Part shown: positions 22,665 to 30,517 of the stretch, one piece after another | Numbering within the stretch: the first letter of the stretch is position 1 | Layout of the letters: every line of letters begins with the position of its first letter | Source: Acholeplasmataceae bacterium | GTDB lineage: Bacteria; Bacillota_I; Bacilli_A; ML615J-28; CAG-698 | Direction: 5' to 3' | DNA length: 41,132 bases | Assembly: GCA_012718985.1 (NCBI GenBank) | Contig: JAAYBG010000081.1 | Location: forward strand, 1-41,132 | Made by a program: the position numbers and the translations under genes | Notes under the pieces: generated by a model | The model's input: the letters and a program-made list of their open reading frames with translations, nothing else | The model's database searches: none | Told to the model about the DNA's origin: nothing

Positions 22665-24446
22665 TTATTGTGATTCTTGGTAAAAGTGAGCTTGTGTTTC
22701 AAACATCTCATAATATTTACCTTTTTTCTTCATCAATTGAATATGATTTCCTTGTTCGATGATTCGACCTTTTTCCATCATATATATTTTATTAGCGTCA
22801 ACTACTGTTGATAGACGATGTGATATTAAAATGACCGTTTTTTCTGCATACAACTTTAATATTTTCTTATTAATTTCATACTCTGATATTGGATCTAATG
22901 ATGATGTCGGTTCATCTAGAATAATAATCGGAGTGTCCGCAGCAAAAACTCTGGCTATTGCTAATTTTTGTTGCTCTCCTCCTGATAAAACTAGTCCTTT
23001 ATCATCGAATTCTTTCGTCATGATCGTGTCTAGTTTCTTTTCTGTTGCCATAATTTTATCATATAGTCCCGCTTTTTTAAGCGCTTCCCATACAACTTCA
23101 TCATCAGTTTCATATTTTCTTGACCGTAAAAGCACATTCTCCAAAACGGACACTGAATAGATTTGAAAATTTTGGAATAGAGAAACATACATTTTTCTAA
23201 TCTCTTTTTCATCAACATCTAAAAATGAATTTCCATCAATTTTTAAATCGCCTTCGCTAACATGATAAAACTTTAATAACAACTTTATTAAAGTCGTTTT
23301 TCCTGCTCCATTATATCCAATAATTGCGATTTTTTCTCGTGGTTCAATTTTTAGATTAATATCCTGTAAAACATATTCTTCTTGGTCGGGATATTTAAAC
23401 CCAACATGTTCAATTTCAATCACTGGATGAGTGCTTTCTAGTTTTTTGCCACCACTATCCTCAACTTTTGGTTGATAATTCATTAGCCAAAGGAAATCAT
23501 CGATATATAAAGCATTATCCCTTAGTCTACCCATACTCCATACAACGCCATAAATATAATTGGTAACTCGTAATATAGCATTGACAGAAGCTGCAAAACT
23601 AGCGATATTAATAATGTTTTTATATACTTTCCACATTAAATAGACATAAACCGCGAAGTTTCGAACGATTTGAGAAGTAATATCTTCTAAAATATTGTAC
23701 AAGAACCCTTTGTTTTCAGTATCACGATAACCTTTATCAAGATTAACTCTAACTTCTTCCTCTTTTTCTATTAATAAATTGGGAAGATTGGTTGTTTTAA
23801 TATCACAGGTATATTTTTCAAGGTAGAAAACACGTTTAATATATCCATAACGACGTTGATTGGTCTCCATTTCTTTACTTGTTTTATACCACATTTTATT
23901 GTTTTTATACTGAATAATGTAGGCTACTGTTGACTGGACAACAACAGCAATTAACAATAAAGGATCTTTGATAACAATATAAATTCCTATTGTAAAAAAC
24001 TTTGCTACATTTATTAAAAAATGAACAAAGGCGTCAAATGTATTGATTCCTTTTAAATCCCCTTGTGTTAAGGCACGATGAAACAAATCATATTCTTTCG
24101 GGTTATCAAAACTAGCGATATCTAGTTTCGCTGCTTTTTCAAACATTACTCTTTGAATTTTTTTCACCCACAAGTGACGATTACGAGCAACGAGATATCC
24201 ATAATGGATTCTTTTAACAATCAAACTAAGAATTAAGATACCGAAAAATAAAATTAATTCTTTTACAATAATATTGAAATCAGCTTTTTCTTCTAATACC
24301 AAATTGATTACTTTCTCAACTATCATTACTTCTATTAAACTTGAAACAGAAGAAGCGATAATAGCAAAAAAAGAAGAAATGATGTATAACGGGCAAAACT
24401 TAGCAACATATTTAATCATAATCATATTATTCTTAAATGTTTTCAT
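22665..24446 (-). CDS. ABC exporter half-transporter (permease-ATPase), second of a pair
   Basis: The 593-residue protein has an N-terminal six-helix membrane domain (about 1-320) and a C-terminal nucleotide-binding domain with Walker A GYNGAGKTTLIK, Q-loop LFQNFQIYS, signature LSGGEQQKLAIARVFA, Walker B IIILDEPTSSLDP and H-loop ISHRLST. All ATPase residues look intact. The start overlaps the end of the upstream exporter gene by 14 bases, and the two are of near-equal length and related sequence, so they likely form a heterodimer. Substrate is unknown; lipid, peptide or drug export are options. It ends at a shared terminator with exoA. Confidence 0.9.
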   Translation of the reverse strand: MKTFKNNMIMIKYVAKFCPLYIISSFFAIIASSVSSLIEVMIVEKVINLVLEEKADFNIIVKELILFFGILILSLIVKRIHYGYLVARNRHLWVKKIQRVMFEKAAKLDIASFDNPKEYDLFHRALTQGDLKGINTFDAFVHFLINVAKFFTIGIYIVIKDPLLLIAVVVQSTVAYIIQYKNNKMWYKTSKEMETNQRRYGYIKRVFYLEKYTCDIKTTNLPNLLIEKEEEVRVNLDKGYRDTENKGFLYNILEDITSQIVRNFAVYVYLMWKVYKNIINIASFAASVNAILRVTNYIYGVVWSMGRLRDNALYIDDFLWLMNYQPKVEDSGGKKLESTHPVIEIEHVGFKYPDQEEYVLQDINLKIEPREKIAIIGYNGAGKTTLIKLLLKFYHVSEGDLKIDGNSFLDVDEKEIRKMYVSLFQNFQIYSVSVLENVLLRSRKYETDDEVVWEALKKAGLYDKIMATEKKLDTIMTKEFDDKGLVLSGGEQQKLAIARVFAADTPIIILDEPTSSLDPISEYEINKKILKLYAEKTVILISHRLSTVVDANKIYMMEKGRIIEQGNHIQLMKKKGKYYEMFETQAHFYQESQ

Positions 24447-26214
24447 TTGCTTTTACCCCATTTAAATAGTTTAATGCTTGAATGTTAAACATATACTGAT
24501 ATTGTCCATCCTTCATTTGCATTAAATCATGATGCGTTCCTTCTTCAATCACTTTACCAGCAGAGAAAAGATAAATTTTATTCGCTTTTACTGTTGTTGA
24601 TAAACGATGGGAAACGAATAATAAGGTTCTATCTTTCCCCAGTTTCATCATCTTGTCATAAATTTCAGCTTCTGCGATAGGGTCAAGTGCACTACTCGGC
24701 TCATCAAGAATAATAAAATCATAATTACCTGCGTAGGCTCTTGCTATTGCTAGTTTCTGTTTTTCTCCGCTACTTAATTCAACTCCTTCTTTATCGAATT
24801 CTTGAGTTATAATGGTATCTAATTGTTTAGGAAAAGACATTACTTTCTCATAAAGCCCGCTAAATTTTAAAGCTTCAATAACTAATTCTTCATCTTCCTT
24901 ATTCTTGCTTTTCCTTAAAAGAATGTTTTCTGATATGGAAAACGAATAAACTTGAAAATCTTGAAAAACAGCCCCTATTTTTTTTCTGATGCTTTCTGGT
25001 TTTAAATCCTGATAGAGCTCTTTATTATAAATAATCTTTCCTTCTTGTGGATCATAAAGACGAAGGAGCATCTTTACAAATGTTGTTTTCCCCGCTCCGT
25101 TTTCCCCAACAACAGCGATTTTATCTCCTTTTGTAATGGTAAGATTGATATCTTCTAATACCTTTGTTTCTCCATAACTGAAATGTAAATTTTTAATTTC
25201 AATTTTTTCAAGTGTTTCTGCTTCTTTCGTACCACTGATTTCAATAACTCCTTTTTGATTCATTATCGCAAACACAGTTTCCCCACGAACAGACGCAGCT
25301 TCAAAAGAAGCTAAATTATCAGAAAGATTCCAAACAATATTGCTCAATGTAGATGCAGCAACCGTTAACGCAACAAAAGAACCAAAATCCATTGATTTTA
25401 ATGTAACATACGAAATAAAACCTAAAGCTAAGGGATAAATACTTCTAATTAAAATTTCTGAAATAAAGGTGAGCGTTGAGCTTTTTAATAATGTCTTATC
25501 TATGTTGCTAATAACACGACTCCCTATGGTATCGTTTGCTTGCAATAATAGACTATCAATCTCGCTTGTTCTGATATCAAAAGAAGCATCCTTTAAGTAA
25601 AACATTCGTTTTACATAGCCTCGTTCTCTGACATTTTTTTTGTTTTTTTGACTTAATTGCCACTCTATTTGGGCAACATATTTTATTAAAAAAAAGTAAA
25701 CAACTCCAACTCCTAGCGCATAGACGATAATTATATAATCAATTAACGCAAAAATTGTAAATATCATAATTACTTTTGCAAAACTAGATATGATATCCGA
25801 TAGTGTCCAAAACGCTCCTATAGATGCCCAACCACCTTCATCAATTGCTCGATTGTAATCATTCAAGAAATCTGATGATTGGTATTTTTCGTAATCTATT
25901 TCCTTTAATTTATTGAAAATCATAATTTCGTAACGACTGAAAAATCTCCTTTGATAGCGTCGATACAATTTATTAAAATAATTATAAATTATTTGAATTA
26001 GATAATCGACAATGGTTATCAATCCACAAACAATTAATACTTTAATAAATTTCTCCCCATTATGATAATAACCAATAATCACTTGAACGATACCTATGGG
26101 AATAAATGTCGTAATTAATCCCAAAACAATATCAAAAATGCTATAGATTAAATAAAAGGGACATAATTTAATAACCATTTTTGCTAGCTTTAATGTTCTT
26201 TTTATACCCTTCAT
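24433..26214 (-). CDS. ABC exporter half-transporter (permease-ATPase), first of a pair
   Basis: From ATG 26214, after AAAAGGAG, this encodes about 593 residues: a six-helix membrane domain followed by an ATPase domain. Motifs are Walker A VGENGAGKTTFVK, Q-loop VFQDFQVYSFS, signature LSSGEKQKLAIARAYAG, Walker B FIILDEPSSALDP and H-loop VSHRLST. The signature reads LSSGE rather than LSGGQ, a mild change that may reflect asymmetry between the two sites of a heterodimer. The catalytic glutamate after Walker B is present in both subunits. It has its own promoter. Confidence 0.9.
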   Translation of the reverse strand: MKGIKRTLKLAKMVIKLCPFYLIYSIFDIVLGLITTFIPIGIVQVIIGYYHNGEKFIKVLIVCGLITIVDYLIQIIYNYFNKLYRRYQRRFFSRYEIMIFNKLKEIDYEKYQSSDFLNDYNRAIDEGGWASIGAFWTLSDIISSFAKVIMIFTIFALIDYIIIVYALGVGVVYFFLIKYVAQIEWQLSQKNKKNVRERGYVKRMFYLKDASFDIRTSEIDSLLLQANDTIGSRVISNIDKTLLKSSTLTFISEILIRSIYPLALGFISYVTLKSMDFGSFVALTVAASTLSNIVWNLSDNLASFEAASVRGETVFAIMNQKGVIEISGTKEAETLEKIEIKNLHFSYGETKVLEDINLTITKGDKIAVVGENGAGKTTFVKMLLRLYDPQEGKIIYNKELYQDLKPESIRKKIGAVFQDFQVYSFSISENILLRKSKNKEDEELVIEALKFSGLYEKVMSFPKQLDTIITQEFDKEGVELSSGEKQKLAIARAYAGNYDFIILDEPSSALDPIAEAEIYDKMMKLGKDRTLLFVSHRLSTTVKANKIYLFSAGKVIEEGTHHDLMQMKDGQYQYMFNIQALNYLNGVKANENI

Positions 26215-26238
26215 AAAAACTCCTTTTATGGACACATT

Positions 26239-26267
26239 ATTTTATCATTTATTAAATGAAGAGACAA
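26239..26267 (-). promoter_or_regulatory. Promoter of the ABC exporter pair
   Basis: TAAAAT at 26244-26239 and TTGTCT at 26267-26262 with a 17-base spacer, just downstream of the VWA gene terminator. Confidence 0.6.
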
Positions 26268-26269
26268 GA

Positions 26270-26301
26270 AAAAAAATAAAGAGCAACGATAAATTGCTCT
26301 T
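26270..26301 (-). terminator. Terminator after the VWA lipoprotein gene
   Basis: AAGAGCAA pairs with TTGCTCTT and is followed by TATTTTTTTT on the minus strand. Confidence 0.9.
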
Positions 26302-26314
26302 GTTAACTAATAAA

Positions 26315-27595
26315 CTACTTTTGATAATAAGGAACCTTTTCTTGTTCAATTCCTGTATAGTATTCACTGATAATCCTGATTAACATCATATTCAAATACT
26401 CTACTACTGTCTCACCAACAGTTGCTTCTATATGTTCATCACCGATACCAGAATGATTAGTAATATATGTATAAGTTCCCCCTGTCATCATCGCTTCATT
26501 ACGAAGTAAATATTCTGTATATTTATCAATTCCACTCGATGCAACAGGAATCATTCTAATTCCTTTACTACTTGCAACTTGAATCGCATTAGCATACCTA
26601 GTCATAATGTCTTTTTCGTAGTGAGGAGGTGCATCAAGCACGTGGAAAAGTAGTTTTGTCGTGTTTTGTTCACTCCATTTTTTTGTTACTGCTTCTTCTA
26701 AAGCAACATCTACAGCTTCTTCCCAATCTCCACCGCCTAAAGCGTTTTGAGCTGCAAGATTTTTCTTTTGCTCTTCGATGTTTGTAGAGAAATCAAAATA
26801 TCTTGTAACATATTCATCGCCAAAATCACGGTAGAAAAGAAGAGCTAAACGAACTTCTGCTTCTTGATGATTTCTTTTTGCTGAACTGATTACATAATCT
26901 ATTTCCGCTTTTAAGTAACTAATTTCATCCCCCATTGAACCTGTTGTATCAACCACAAACATAATTTCAATTATTTTTTCTTTAGTGTTTGATGTTTTTA
27001 TATCGTATTCTACAACATTTGTTTCTTTACTATAGGTATAATCTTTGTATGTAGTCACATTATTAACGGTTATTCCTATTTGTTTAATCGTTGTTATTTC
27101 TTTTGTTGCTGGGAATAAATATGCTTTTCCATTAGCATTAGTAATTGATGTATATAAAACTTCTTGATTTTCACTCAAAAGTTCTACTTTAGCACCTGAT
27201 ACTTTTTCTTCACCATTCTTAATAACAACCTCAATCATATTCAGAGTATCAAAATATCCCTTCTGAAAATGTTCGGTAAATAAGCCCTCTTTAGAATCTT
27301 GCCCGCTAGTAAAAAGACTTAACCAAAAACGATAATTTTTCAGATCGCTCCATTCGCTTGCTGAAATTTGCCCTGCTTGGGGAATAAAATTTGGAGAACC
27401 TTCTTCTTTAGGTTCCACTTCTCCTTCCATTACGTCTGGTGATAAACTACCATCATAAAAGTCTTTTCCTGCTACTGTATCAGAAGGCATTCCGGTAGGA
27501 GCATCAATTGTAGCATCCTCCATTACTTTTTGTTTACAACCAACAAACAAAAAAATTAATAGAAATAAAGACATCATTAAAAATATTTTTTTCAT
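26315..27595 (-). CDS. Lipoprotein with a von Willebrand factor A domain
   Basis: The 426-residue protein begins with a lipoprotein signal peptide ending in LFVGCKQK, so it should be anchored on the outer face of the membrane. After an acidic linker (about 25-75), residues about 110-200 look like a carboxypeptidase-regulatory/Ig-type beta domain (VSGAKVELLSENQEVLYTS). A VWA domain follows from about residue 210, with a MIDAS motif DTTGSMGDE and later conserved residues in LLFYRDFGDEYVT and HVLDAPPHYEKD. VWA domains mediate metal-dependent protein binding. Partner and role are unknown. The gene is a single unit between two terminators, with GAGGTG before the ATG. Confidence 0.85.
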   Translation of the reverse strand: MKKIFLMMSLFLLIFLFVGCKQKVMEDATIDAPTGMPSDTVAGKDFYDGSLSPDVMEGEVEPKEEGSPNFIPQAGQISASEWSDLKNYRFWLSLFTSGQDSKEGLFTEHFQKGYFDTLNMIEVVIKNGEEKVSGAKVELLSENQEVLYTSITNANGKAYLFPATKEITTIKQIGITVNNVTTYKDYTYSKETNVVEYDIKTSNTKEKIIEIMFVVDTTGSMGDEISYLKAEIDYVISSAKRNHQEAEVRLALLFYRDFGDEYVTRYFDFSTNIEEQKKNLAAQNALGGGDWEEAVDVALEEAVTKKWSEQNTTKLLFHVLDAPPHYEKDIMTRYANAIQVASSKGIRMIPVASSGIDKYTEYLLRNEAMMTGGTYTYITNHSGIGDEHIEATVGETVVEYLNMMLIRIISEYYTGIEQEKVPYYQK

Positions 27596-27654: not shown

Positions 27655-27685
27655 TAATAAAACTCTAGTTTTTGGCTAGAGTTTT
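27655..27685 (-). terminator. Terminator after the amino-acid ABC importer operon
   Basis: AAAACTCTAG pairs with CTAGAGTTTT around a seven-base loop, followed by a T-rich tail. The first stem arm overlaps the stop codon of the ATPase gene. Confidence 0.88.
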
Positions 27686-28553
27686 ATAATACTTTACTTA
27701 AAAATTCTTTTGTTCTTGGATGTTGAGGATTCTCAAAAACTTCTTTTGGTGTTCCTTTTTCAACAATTTTTCCATCATCCATAAAGAAAACTCGATCGCT
27801 TATTTCTTTGGCAAATCCCATTTCATGAGTTACTATCACAACAGTCATTCCCATTTTCACAACTTGTTTAATGATATCCAAAACTTCTTTTACCATTTCT
27901 GGATCAAGAGCACTTGTTGGTTCATCAAACAACATTACTTTAGGATTCATTGCCAGAGCCCTAGCAATTGCTAAACGTTGTTTTTGGCCACCGCTAAGTT
28001 TTTTAGGATAGTCATATATCTTATCTTTAAGACCAACCTTTTCTAGCAATTCTTTGGCAACTATTTCAGCTTCTTCTTTATTCATTTTATTGGTTAATAC
28101 TGGCGCTAAAGTAATGTTTTCCAATACGTTTAAATGAGGAAAAACATTAAAATGTTGGAAAACCATCCCCATTTTTTGACGATGAATATTAATTGCTTTA
28201 TCCAATTTTTTTAATCGCGCTTTTTCAAGATTTTGATGTTTTTTATATTCTAAAACAGCAGCTTTATATTTTGCTTTGTACTCTTGAGAATTCATTTCTT
28301 TTTTCTTTGCTTTAATCGCTTCAACAGCTTTTTTATATCGCGAAGATTCTTTTTTATAAATAATTTCTCCATCGAATTCAATAGTTCCTTTAGTAGGAAT
28401 TTCTATTAAATTCAAACATCTTAAAAACGTTGATTTACCGCTACCACTAGGGCCTATAACAGATACTACTTCACCTTTTGCAATTTCTTCATCTATTCCC
28501 TTTAAAACTTCTAATGAACCAAATTTTTTTTGCAAATTTTTTACTTTAATCAC
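27684..28553 (-). CDS. Polar amino-acid ABC importer ATPase with an unusual insertion
   Basis: The 289-residue ATPase is of the GlnQ/HisP type: Walker [10 protein letters not shown] (34-42), Q-loop [18 protein letters not shown] (Gln133), signature [17 protein letters not shown], Walker [16 protein letters not shown] and H-loop VTHEMGF. It is about 50 residues longer than the usual 240. The extra part is residues 67-120, between Walker A and the Q-loop, and is a Lys/Glu/Ala-rich helical stretch ([19 protein letters not shown]). The catalytic motifs are intact. It overlaps the permease gene by 8 bases and is the third gene of a binding protein-permease-ATPase operon. Confidence 0.92.
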
Positions 28554-29196
28554 TTAGCTTCAACCTCTTTTCAAACTTACCAATAAATTTTGATAGAGTA
28601 TACGTTAAGATGAAATAAATAATACCTATAATGATGTATGGTTCAATTGCTAAATAGGTTTGTGTAGTAATGATTGTTTTTGCTGTCATTAAATCTCCAA
28701 TATAGAATACCGAAGATAATGAAGTTTCTTTGATTACGGTAACAAATTCGTTTCCTAATGCAGGCAAGATATTCTTAACTGCTTGAGGGAGAACTATTTT
28801 TGTCATCGTTTTATTTGCATTAATACCTAGACTTCTAGAAGCCTCCACTTGACCTTTGTCTACTGCTTGAATGCCCGATCTGATAATTTCTGCAACATAG
28901 GCTGCTGAATTCAACAGCAACGCTAAGCATACTGCACCTACTTTACCAAGTGCAGAACTAAACAACAAATAAATTACCCACAATTGTAATAATAGAGGAA
29001 TTCCTCTTACAATTTCCGTATATGTTTCAGAGATAATATTAAGTATTTTACTTTTTGATAATCTCATTAAAGCAAAGACTGTTCCTAGGATCGTTCCAAA
29101 GACCACTGTTATTAAAGAAAGGAGAAGGGTAACGCCCATCCCCTCCATAAATAACGGAAAATATTTAATCAGTATTTTGTATAAGTTTTCAAACAT
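28546..29196 (-). CDS. Polar amino-acid ABC importer permease (HisM/GlnP type)
   Basis: The 216-residue protein has about five membrane helices and the family's coupling loop, [20 protein letters not shown], that contacts the ATPase. The N-terminal region [20 protein letters not shown] and the [20 protein letters not shown] segment are typical of amino-acid permeases of the HisMQ class. It would work as a homodimer because only one permease gene is present. It starts 3 bases after the binding-protein gene and is followed by the ATPase. Confidence 0.93.
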
Positions 29197-29199
29197 CTT

Positions 29200-30024
29200 T
29201 TATTTTTTCTCAGTTAAGCTTGCCGCTAAATCTGTCGCTTCTTGGAACCAAACTTCATACTTTTCTTCAGCAATCATCTTTGCGATGATTTCATTAATCT
29301 TTGTGATTAATTCTTTTTGTCCTTTGGCCGCTAAAACGAACAATTGTGTTTCTTCTGTTGGAACGGTAAATGTTTCTTCTAGGAACACATATTTATTTGG
29401 TTGTTGAGTAATTATATTCTCAGCAACGCTTGATGCTAAGGCAACTGCTTTGATTGTCCCATTGTCAAGCAATAGTAATCCATCAGCAATCTTTGTAAAT
29501 GCTTCTGCCGTCGCGTTTGGTAGTTGATTTGTAATATAGTCAAATTGTAATGATCCACTTTGACCACCAACTTTTACGCCAGCAACATTTAATTTAGCCA
29601 ATGTGTTGTATTGATTCTTATCGTAATCACTCTTTAATACGATAATACCTTGAGAGCCTTCTTGATAATATGGATTAGATAATTCATAGTTTTCTGCTCT
29701 TTCAGATTTATAGGTAAATCCAGAAATTGCTAAATCAGCTGCTCCCGTTGATAATAATGCTAATGTTGTATCAAAATCTGTTGCTTCTATTTTTAATGTT
29801 ACACCCAATTCCTTAGCAATATACTTCATAAATTCTATATCTGAACCTACATATTTATCTTGCCCTGATTTTGACTCGTCAGTAAATTCAAATGCTGGGT
29901 AGTCTGGTGAAGTAACGATTACAATTTCACCTTTTTTTGTTATTTTATCAAGCACATTCTTTTTGCATCCTGTTAATCCAAACACACTAATTATTAATAA
30001 CACCAAACAAATTATTTTTTTCAT
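29200..30024 (-). CDS. Polar amino-acid ABC importer substrate-binding lipoprotein
   Basis: The 274-residue protein has a lipoprotein signal peptide (IISVFGLTGCKK, lipid attached to Cys20). The mature part is a family 3 solute-binding protein: VTSPDYPAFEFTDE, YVGSDIEFMKYIAKELGV, DLAISGFTYKSERAENYELS and VGGQSGSLQ. Such proteins bind polar or charged amino acids (Gln, Glu, Arg, Cys and others); the specificity cannot be read with confidence. It is the first structural gene of the importer and lies behind a complex leader with three tandem structured units and a short ORF. Shine-Dalgarno GAGGAGAAAGAAAA. Confidence 0.92.
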   Translation of the reverse strand: MKKIICLVLLIISVFGLTGCKKNVLDKITKKGEIVIVTSPDYPAFEFTDESKSGQDKYVGSDIEFMKYIAKELGVTLKIEATDFDTTLALLSTGAADLAISGFTYKSERAENYELSNPYYQEGSQGIIVLKSDYDKNQYNTLAKLNVAGVKVGGQSGSLQFDYITNQLPNATAEAFTKIADGLLLLDNGTIKAVALASSVAENIITQQPNKYVFLEETFTVPTEETQLFVLAAKGQKELITKINEIIAKMIAEEKYEVWFQEATDLAASLTEKK

Positions 30025-30068: not shown

Positions 30069-30128
30069 CTAATATAGGGCTAATTCAATTACAACTCCAT
30101 TTCTTGTGTTTATATTATTCCGCCGCAT
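30069..30128 (-). CDS. Possible 19-codon leader peptide starting Met-Arg-Arg
   Basis: A perfect AGGAGG lies seven bases before an ATG at 30128. The frame reads MRRNNINTRNGVVIELALY and stops with TAG at 30071-30069, about 45 bases before the binding-protein gene. Codons 2 and 3 are both CGG, a codon uncommon in this AT-rich DNA, and a third Arg is AGA. The ribosome site is better than that of most genes here, and it lies directly after the third terminator-like hairpin. It may be a regulatory leader peptide, for example one sensing arginine. It may instead be a fortuitous frame. Confidence 0.45.
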   Translation of the reverse strand: MRRNNINTRNGVVIELALY

Positions 30129-30148
30129 AAAAAAACCTCCTATAAAAT

Positions 30149-30458
30149 AAAAAGTACCTTTCCAGGTGCTTTTTGCTTTATGCTCAAGAGGTATTTTAAG
30201 ACTATGCTCAAGAATCACTTCTATCTTTTAAACAAAAAAAACCTGGATTAAAACAAAAAAATCCCATCACAGGATTGAATTTTTACCTATACTCAAAGAG
30301 AATTCTTTTCTCTTATCGAGAATCCTTTTCCCTTATCTTTTAAAAATTAACCCTGGATTAGTAACAAAAAAACCTATTTAACATAGGCTCAATTTAAAAT
30401 TTATGCTCAAAAAGAAATCTTTTCTTTTATCTTTTAAATTAAACCCGTTTTTTTGTAT
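30149..30458 (-). promoter_or_regulatory. Three tandem structured leader units, each with a terminator-like hairpin
   Basis: The leader of the amino-acid importer contains three units. Each has the identical box TTTAAAAGATA (30438-30428, 30344-30334, 30232-30222), a hairpin of variable length, then TTGAG(C/T)ATA (30410-30402, 30296-30288, 30211-30203). An outer helix closes the unit (for example AATTTAAAA/TTTTAAATT in the first and AATTTTTA/TAAAAATT in the second). Each unit is followed by a hairpin: CCTAT/ATAGG plus seven Ts (30387-30366), AATCC/GGATT plus Ts (30276-30255), and AAAAAG-C-ACCT/AGGT-A-CTTTTT (30174-30149). TAATCCAGG is also repeated (30360, 30250). I do not recognise the family. 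Confidence 0.7.
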
Positions 30459-30464
30459 GCAACC

Positions 30465-30492
30465 ATTATATCATTATCTCAGCACAAGTCAA
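30465..30492 (-). promoter_or_regulatory. Promoter of the amino-acid importer operon
   Basis: TATAAT at 30470-30465 and TTGACT at 30492-30487 with a 16-base spacer. Transcription would start near 30458, giving a leader of more than 430 bases. Confidence 0.8.
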
Positions 30493-30503
30493 AACTTTTT
30501 TCA

Positions 30504-30517
30504 TGAAAACGTTTCAT
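30504..30517. promoter_or_regulatory. Candidate CcpA cre site upstream of the importer promoter
   Basis: TGAAAACGTTTCAT matches the cre consensus TGWAARCGYTWNCW at 13 of 14 positions. It lies about 12 bases upstream of the -35, a position seen for CcpA-activated promoters in Bacillus. No CcpA gene is in the window. Confidence 0.5.

Follow-up and report, generated by a model that had tools for sequence, protein, structure and literature searches.

In the window, by which we mean the whole 41,132-nucleotide stretch of Acholeplasmataceae DNA that was analysed, three RNA units (30149-30446, minus strand) lie with a promoter on one side and an ABC amino-acid importer on the other. The units are copies of an RNA element that, judged against Rfam, is previously undescribed and unclassified. 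It is most likely an antitermination element that is on when arginine is scarce, resembling T-boxes and RAT elements in its working while being a member of neither class. The full explanation that we favour, in which three such RNAs act in series, are turned on by arginine scarcity, and are followed by a check through an Arg-Arg leader peptide, is in our estimate somewhat better than an even proposition. The sequence-only reading had proposed an attenuator of three stages built from an unrecognised RNA that senses the importer's substrate or another signal. Direct sensing of the substrate is the more speculative part of this proposal, whereas an attenuator of this kind, with an RNA outside Rfam, is supported by sequence conservation, by covariation, by terminators that compete with the outer helix P1, and by the restriction of the element to the leaders of amino-acid importer genes and argG. 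These observations describe a covarying RNA family, apparently tied to arginine supply and often serial, that in two loci stands in series with an arginine T-box. At about 60 nt, the element is small and testable.

The importer leader and the architecture of its units

On the minus strand, to which all positions below refer, the promoter (TTGACT, 16 nt, TATAAT; 30465-30492) carries 11 of 12 consensus bases. Immediately upstream is a cre-like palindrome (TGAAACGTTTTCA, 30504-30516) of the AAACGTTTTCA type. The same or a similar box, with variants, is located upstream of the leader at most related loci, and it is possible that it places arginine uptake under catabolite or LacI-type control. The importer genes encode a substrate-binding lipoprotein (29200-30024), a permease (28546-29196), and an ATPase (27684-28553). 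Family models match the ATPase in two stretches, between which there is an apparent lysine-rich insertion of about 45 residues (near residues 55-105). The region downstream of the importer (22665-27595) codes for a lipoprotein without an NCBIfam match and for two large ABC transporter subunits that have the look of an exporter pair.

Each unit follows the same plan, which reads P1 - (A/C)AAGAU - P2 - UGAGYAU - P1' from 5' to 3'. The sequence AAGA (box A), mostly preceded by A or C and followed by U, is located directly 5' of P2 in all 28 units that we identified, and UGAGYAU (box B) is located directly 3' of P2 in the same 28, giving about 11 invariant bases per unit. P1 forms when the upstream sequence pairs with the sequence 3' of box B, and the two boxes are placed opposite one another in an asymmetric internal loop flanked by P1 and P2.

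In unit 1, the P1 5' strand (GGGUUUAAUUUAAAA, 30432-30446) forms a 15-pair helix with the 3' strand at 30385-30399, which overlaps the 5' arm of the terminator. Box A (AAAAGAU, 30429-30435), the covarying P2 hairpin (30410-30428), and box B (UGAGCAUA, 30402-30409) lie between these strands, and the intrinsic terminator (30365-30389) is a weak AT-rich stem with seven T nucleotides and a fold of -8.0 kcal/mol. Unit 2 consists of a P1 5' strand (30342-30355), box A (30335-30341), a long P2 that includes an inner hairpin (30296-30334), box B (UGAGUAUA, 30288-30295), a P1 3' strand (30270-30285), and an intrinsic terminator (30254-30276). In unit 3, the P1 strands (30230-30247 and 30161-30178) form an 18-position helix, box A is at 30223-30229, and the intrinsic terminator is at 30149-30174. 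Two mutually exclusive versions of P2 are available within 30187-30222: a short one (30211-30222) that ends at box B1 (UGAGCAUA, 30203-30210) and a long one that ends at box B2 (UGAGCAUA, 30179-30186).

Most of these elements had been noticed from the letters of the window. The box TTTAAAAGATA was found exactly three times where it had been reported, the four TGAG(C/T)ATA boxes correspond to the box B positions given above, and TAATCCAGG was located ahead of copies 2 and 3 (30352-30360 and 30242-30250). A hairpin with a T-run follows every unit, and the outer helix, which had been seen to close in at least two copies, closes in all three. The conserved boxes are real and are shorter than had been described, with the core reduced to (A/C)AAGA(U) and UGAGYAU. 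Of two extra TTGAG boxes, the one at 30392 is not conserved in the sister species, and the other is a true second box B at 30179-30186. Five copy-3-type units carry such a second box, which can lengthen P2 while using the same box A, so that two exclusive folds exist. The arrangement is conserved in genomes G001, G002, G020, and G026, and in the last two of these the related units can likewise form either P2 version.

Comparative sequence analysis indicates that P1 and P2 are both maintained through compensatory change. Because P2 varies in length, MAFFT misaligned the raw copies at the boxes; the first model was made from N-padded copies, and later counts use an alignment (A3) fitted to that model. 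In this fitted alignment, P2 is paired in 97.9% of cells, its covariation is 0.589 compared to 0.280 in shuffled alignments, and 34 cells are double-changed compared to 10.7 in shuffles. Only candidate units with three or more P2 pairs had been admitted to the list, and support for P2 was taken instead from these covariation measures and from an alignment-free swap test, in which 3.85 of 4 end pairs form compared to 3.10 (s.d. 0.14) after swapping. For P1, the mean duplex energy is -13.1 kcal/mol with the strands' own partners and -7.6 kcal/mol (s.d. 0.57) with permuted partners, the former value being reached in 0 of 20,000 permutations. Restricting the analysis to one genome per genus gives -12.9 compared to -7.5 for permuted partners. 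The outer helices had been called covariation-like on inspection, and P1 is indeed far stronger than expected from permuted partners. Its register relative to the boxes shifts by a few bases between units, some units carry an extra hairpin inserted 3' of box B (G019, G006, G023, and G028), and the unit of G030 has no P1. The unit presents the conserved, covarying, aptamer-like domain that is looked for in riboswitches.

Distribution of the element

The sequence-only reading had suggested a covariance search of Rfam and of related leaders, and such a search recovered no Rfam match and additional units in related leaders. An exact pattern search of 100 relatives matched only the window, the same locus in two genomes of the same genus, and one coding stretch. 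Looser copies are present ahead of related importer genes in G023 and G011. The first covariance model, built from 10 copies, added copies in G016, G017, G019, G020, G026, G028, and G030, and the refined model, rerun over 43 genomes of the order, which is an uncultured group, added G006. In total, 28 units are found in 13 loci, each with one to three units, in 13 of these 43 genomes. The genomes compared are draft assemblies, mostly derived from metagenomes. Twelve loci precede genes for amino-acid ABC binding proteins and the thirteenth, in G016, precedes argG. Weak matches in G039 (L004), G037 (L049), and elsewhere were set aside as coding or lacking context.

Outside the order, our searches of a class sample and of a species-wide collection revealed no convincing copy. 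Among 395 sampled genomes of the class, the only two matches beyond the order (L071 and L072) are inside genes. Scanning 84,980 species with a pattern produced 28 matches, seven of which are loci of this order. The other 21 are nearly all within long open frames (at least 112 codons, with one of 53 codons), none has the flanks of the element, and they were rejected. Of the known loci, about half are picked up by the scan pattern, so a relative that was common elsewhere should probably have come to light, although a divergent one could escape. Viral contigs yielded no copies.

Competition between P1 and the terminators

Terminator-like hairpins follow 26 of the 28 units, compared to 3.9 expected from shuffles. 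With the terminator 3' arm blocked, P1 in 27 of the 28 units (the exception being G030) captures between 4 and 13 bases from the terminator's 5' arm, and P1 is therefore an antiterminator. The leaders thus combine an intrinsic terminator with a mutually exclusive upstream helix, as expected for transcription attenuators. With four terminators placed by hand, the energy differences between the two folds in these 27 units ranged around zero from about -9 to +6.5 kcal/mol, values that are rough estimates for AT-rich folds at 37 °C. The inner part of P1 often persists alongside the terminator in many units, and the contest therefore concerns outer P1, with a modest energetic lever.

In the antitermination mechanism that we favour, both boxes are enclosed by P1 and P2, so that any effector ordering the loop would be expected to strengthen P1 and lead to readthrough. 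The effector, whose level would rise under arginine scarcity, would bind the loop formed by boxes A and B, pay the cost of folding this loop, and keep P1 closed. Closed P1 would take the terminator 5' arm and permit RNA polymerase to read through, and the terminator would form when the effector is missing. Three units in series would provide AND logic that keeps the importer firmly shut down while arginine is abundant, and the Arg-Arg leader peptide would add a check linked to translation. We infer from gene context that arginine is the signal and from the helix layout that the bound state is the on state; a protein, a metabolite, and a tRNA are all conceivable as the effector. If binding stabilises P1, an effector raised by arginine would contradict the arginine T-boxes that occur in series with the element, which need uncharged tRNA-Arg, and thus an effector linked to starvation fits better.

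In G000_2, G000_3, and G019_2 the antiterminator is predicted to be stable without any effector, and such stability in several units would mean that the default state is on. The main rival explanation is a default-on element that arginine shuts, namely an off-type riboswitch in which arginine, or a compound close to it, occupies the aptamer core and destabilises P1 to release the terminator. Besides the predicted stabilities, the conserved internal loop, which is small and sits between two helices, and the association with one gene class are consistent with this reading, and its logic would agree with serial arginine T-boxes. However, P1 encloses the core, so that binding would normally stabilise this helix, and no other conserved pairing incompatible with P1 is visible in the folds. 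We consider an off-type arginine riboswitch unlikely.

The probable link to arginine

The company that the element keeps, which includes arginine T-boxes, Arg-Arg leader peptides, argG, and a binding protein nearest to arginine-type proteins, points to control by arginine supply. In the argG leader of G016, a unit and its terminator are followed by an Arg(CGC) T-box that scores 140.8 bits, and the leader in G011 (L014) likewise carries a unit and then an arginine T-box. Related importer binding-protein genes in G009 and G014 (L011 and L013) are preceded by an arginine T-box and no unit, where the T-box of G014 scores below Rfam's cut-off. Read from alignment position, the predicted specifier is CGC (arginine) in all four of these T-boxes.

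A second indication comes from short ORFs. Downstream of unit 3 in the window, a Shine-Dalgarno sequence (AGGAGG, 30136-30141) precedes a leader-peptide ORF (MRRNNINTRNGVVIELALY, 30069-30128) with tandem CGG codons directly after the start codon, and CGG accounts for only 8 of the 4374 codons in the window's genes. Arg-Arg leader ORFs with a Shine-Dalgarno sequence follow the last unit in six genomes, beginning with MRR in G000, G001, and G002 and with MKTKxRR in G006, G019, and G023. In G001 there is a second MRR start, in frame with the binding-protein gene.

By sequence, the nearest relatives of the window's binding protein are 4ymx, 4h5f, and 4i62, which we take to be arginine-type binding proteins. 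The binding proteins at other loci belong to several other subfamilies, and some of these proteins resemble Gln/Arg ancestors more closely than arginine-specific ones, so that arginine is only a candidate substrate for them.

Within the order, argG is present in only one of the 43 genomes (L048, G016:C141), and apart from G016, members of the order seem to lack this route to arginine. The carriers, being mostly without argG, appear to depend on uptake. In principle, the element might instead be an on-switch through which a co-substrate (arginine, citrulline, or ornithine) induces uptake or use, which would accord with the role of P1 as an antiterminator and with citrulline being the substrate of ArgG. 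However, arginine in this role would oppose the serial arginine T-box, and no arcA gene was seen in nine of the 13 carrier genomes, which weakens any tie to arginine catabolism; we rejected a link to that pathway because most carriers have no arcA. An on-switch for a co-substrate is in our view quite improbable.

Comparison with known RNA systems

At the gathering score, Rfam models give nothing on the window's leader or its units, and matches up to an E value of 10 are chance matches only. No lysine, glycine, glutamine, or SAM riboswitch appears in the leader up to that value, which agrees with the earlier opinion that the RNA does not match the T-box, SAM, or glycine signatures and lacks most of the lysine riboswitch. 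The validated riboswitch classes for amino acids are those for glycine, lysine, and glutamine only (PMC9971707, 2022), and a search of the openly accessible literature for 'arginine riboswitch' returned one unrelated paper only. Like these three classes, the units have a terminator platform and might sense an amino acid directly; unlike them, they match no Rfam model. It is a rather doubtful proposition, which we hold only tentatively, that these stacks of up to three units represent a natural class of riboswitch responding to arginine or to a closely related metabolite of the arginine pathway. If true, a fourth amino acid, or the first compound of the urea-cycle type, would be sensed directly by RNA.

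The leader shares with leader-peptide attenuation a short ORF with Arg-Arg codons directly after the start. In contrast to such systems, the Arg-Arg ORF is located downstream of the units, and no start codon with a Shine-Dalgarno sequence for a translated leader ORF was found inside them.

RAT antiterminators, which are bound by proteins of the BglG/LicT family, are imperfect hairpins with a conserved internal loop that overlap a terminator arm. The unit has these same features, whereas its conserved bases appear to differ from the RAT consensus, its associated genes are different, and no BglG-type protein is associated with it here. A concrete form of our preferred explanation is that this order has an RNA-binding protein, responsive to arginine, that binds the loop and stabilises P1 in the manner of a RAT-type antiterminator. 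The shared layout, the narrow lineage, and the set of about 11 invariant bases are consistent with such a protein, which we regard as a serious possibility that falls well short of being probable.

The closest parallels are with T-boxes. A sensor of uncharged tRNA-Arg that binds the core and dispenses with T-box parts might be suspected, given that AAGA is invariant, that box A holds the arginine codon AGA, that tRNA-Arg(UCU) is present, and that T-boxes stand in for the element at related loci. However, the invariant core includes neither the UGGN bulge for the tRNA end nor a Stem I specifier codon, and the T-box model (RF00230) gives no match at or above the gathering score on the leader or any unit, compared to 127-141 for the true T-boxes that adjoin units. 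Box B pairs with tRNA-Arg no better than with other tRNAs, and its 5-base match is a general feature of the D-arm. We judge a tRNA sensor of this kind to be very unlikely.

The units differ from arginine-type T-boxes in that Stem I, the specifier codon, and the UGGNACC bulge are all missing, and in spanning about 60-100 nt rather than about 210. Like these T-boxes, which take the corresponding place ahead of the importer genes in relatives, they set an antiterminator helix against the 5' arm of a terminator and can be arranged serially as two or three copies. Before artQ-glnQ-artP operons, as many as three T-boxes are reported to lie next to one another (PMC12452182), and thus the serial arrangement ahead of Art-type importers has a precedent that the RNA itself does not. 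This correspondence raises the question of why one lineage has swapped the T-box for another RNA at the same kind of gene.
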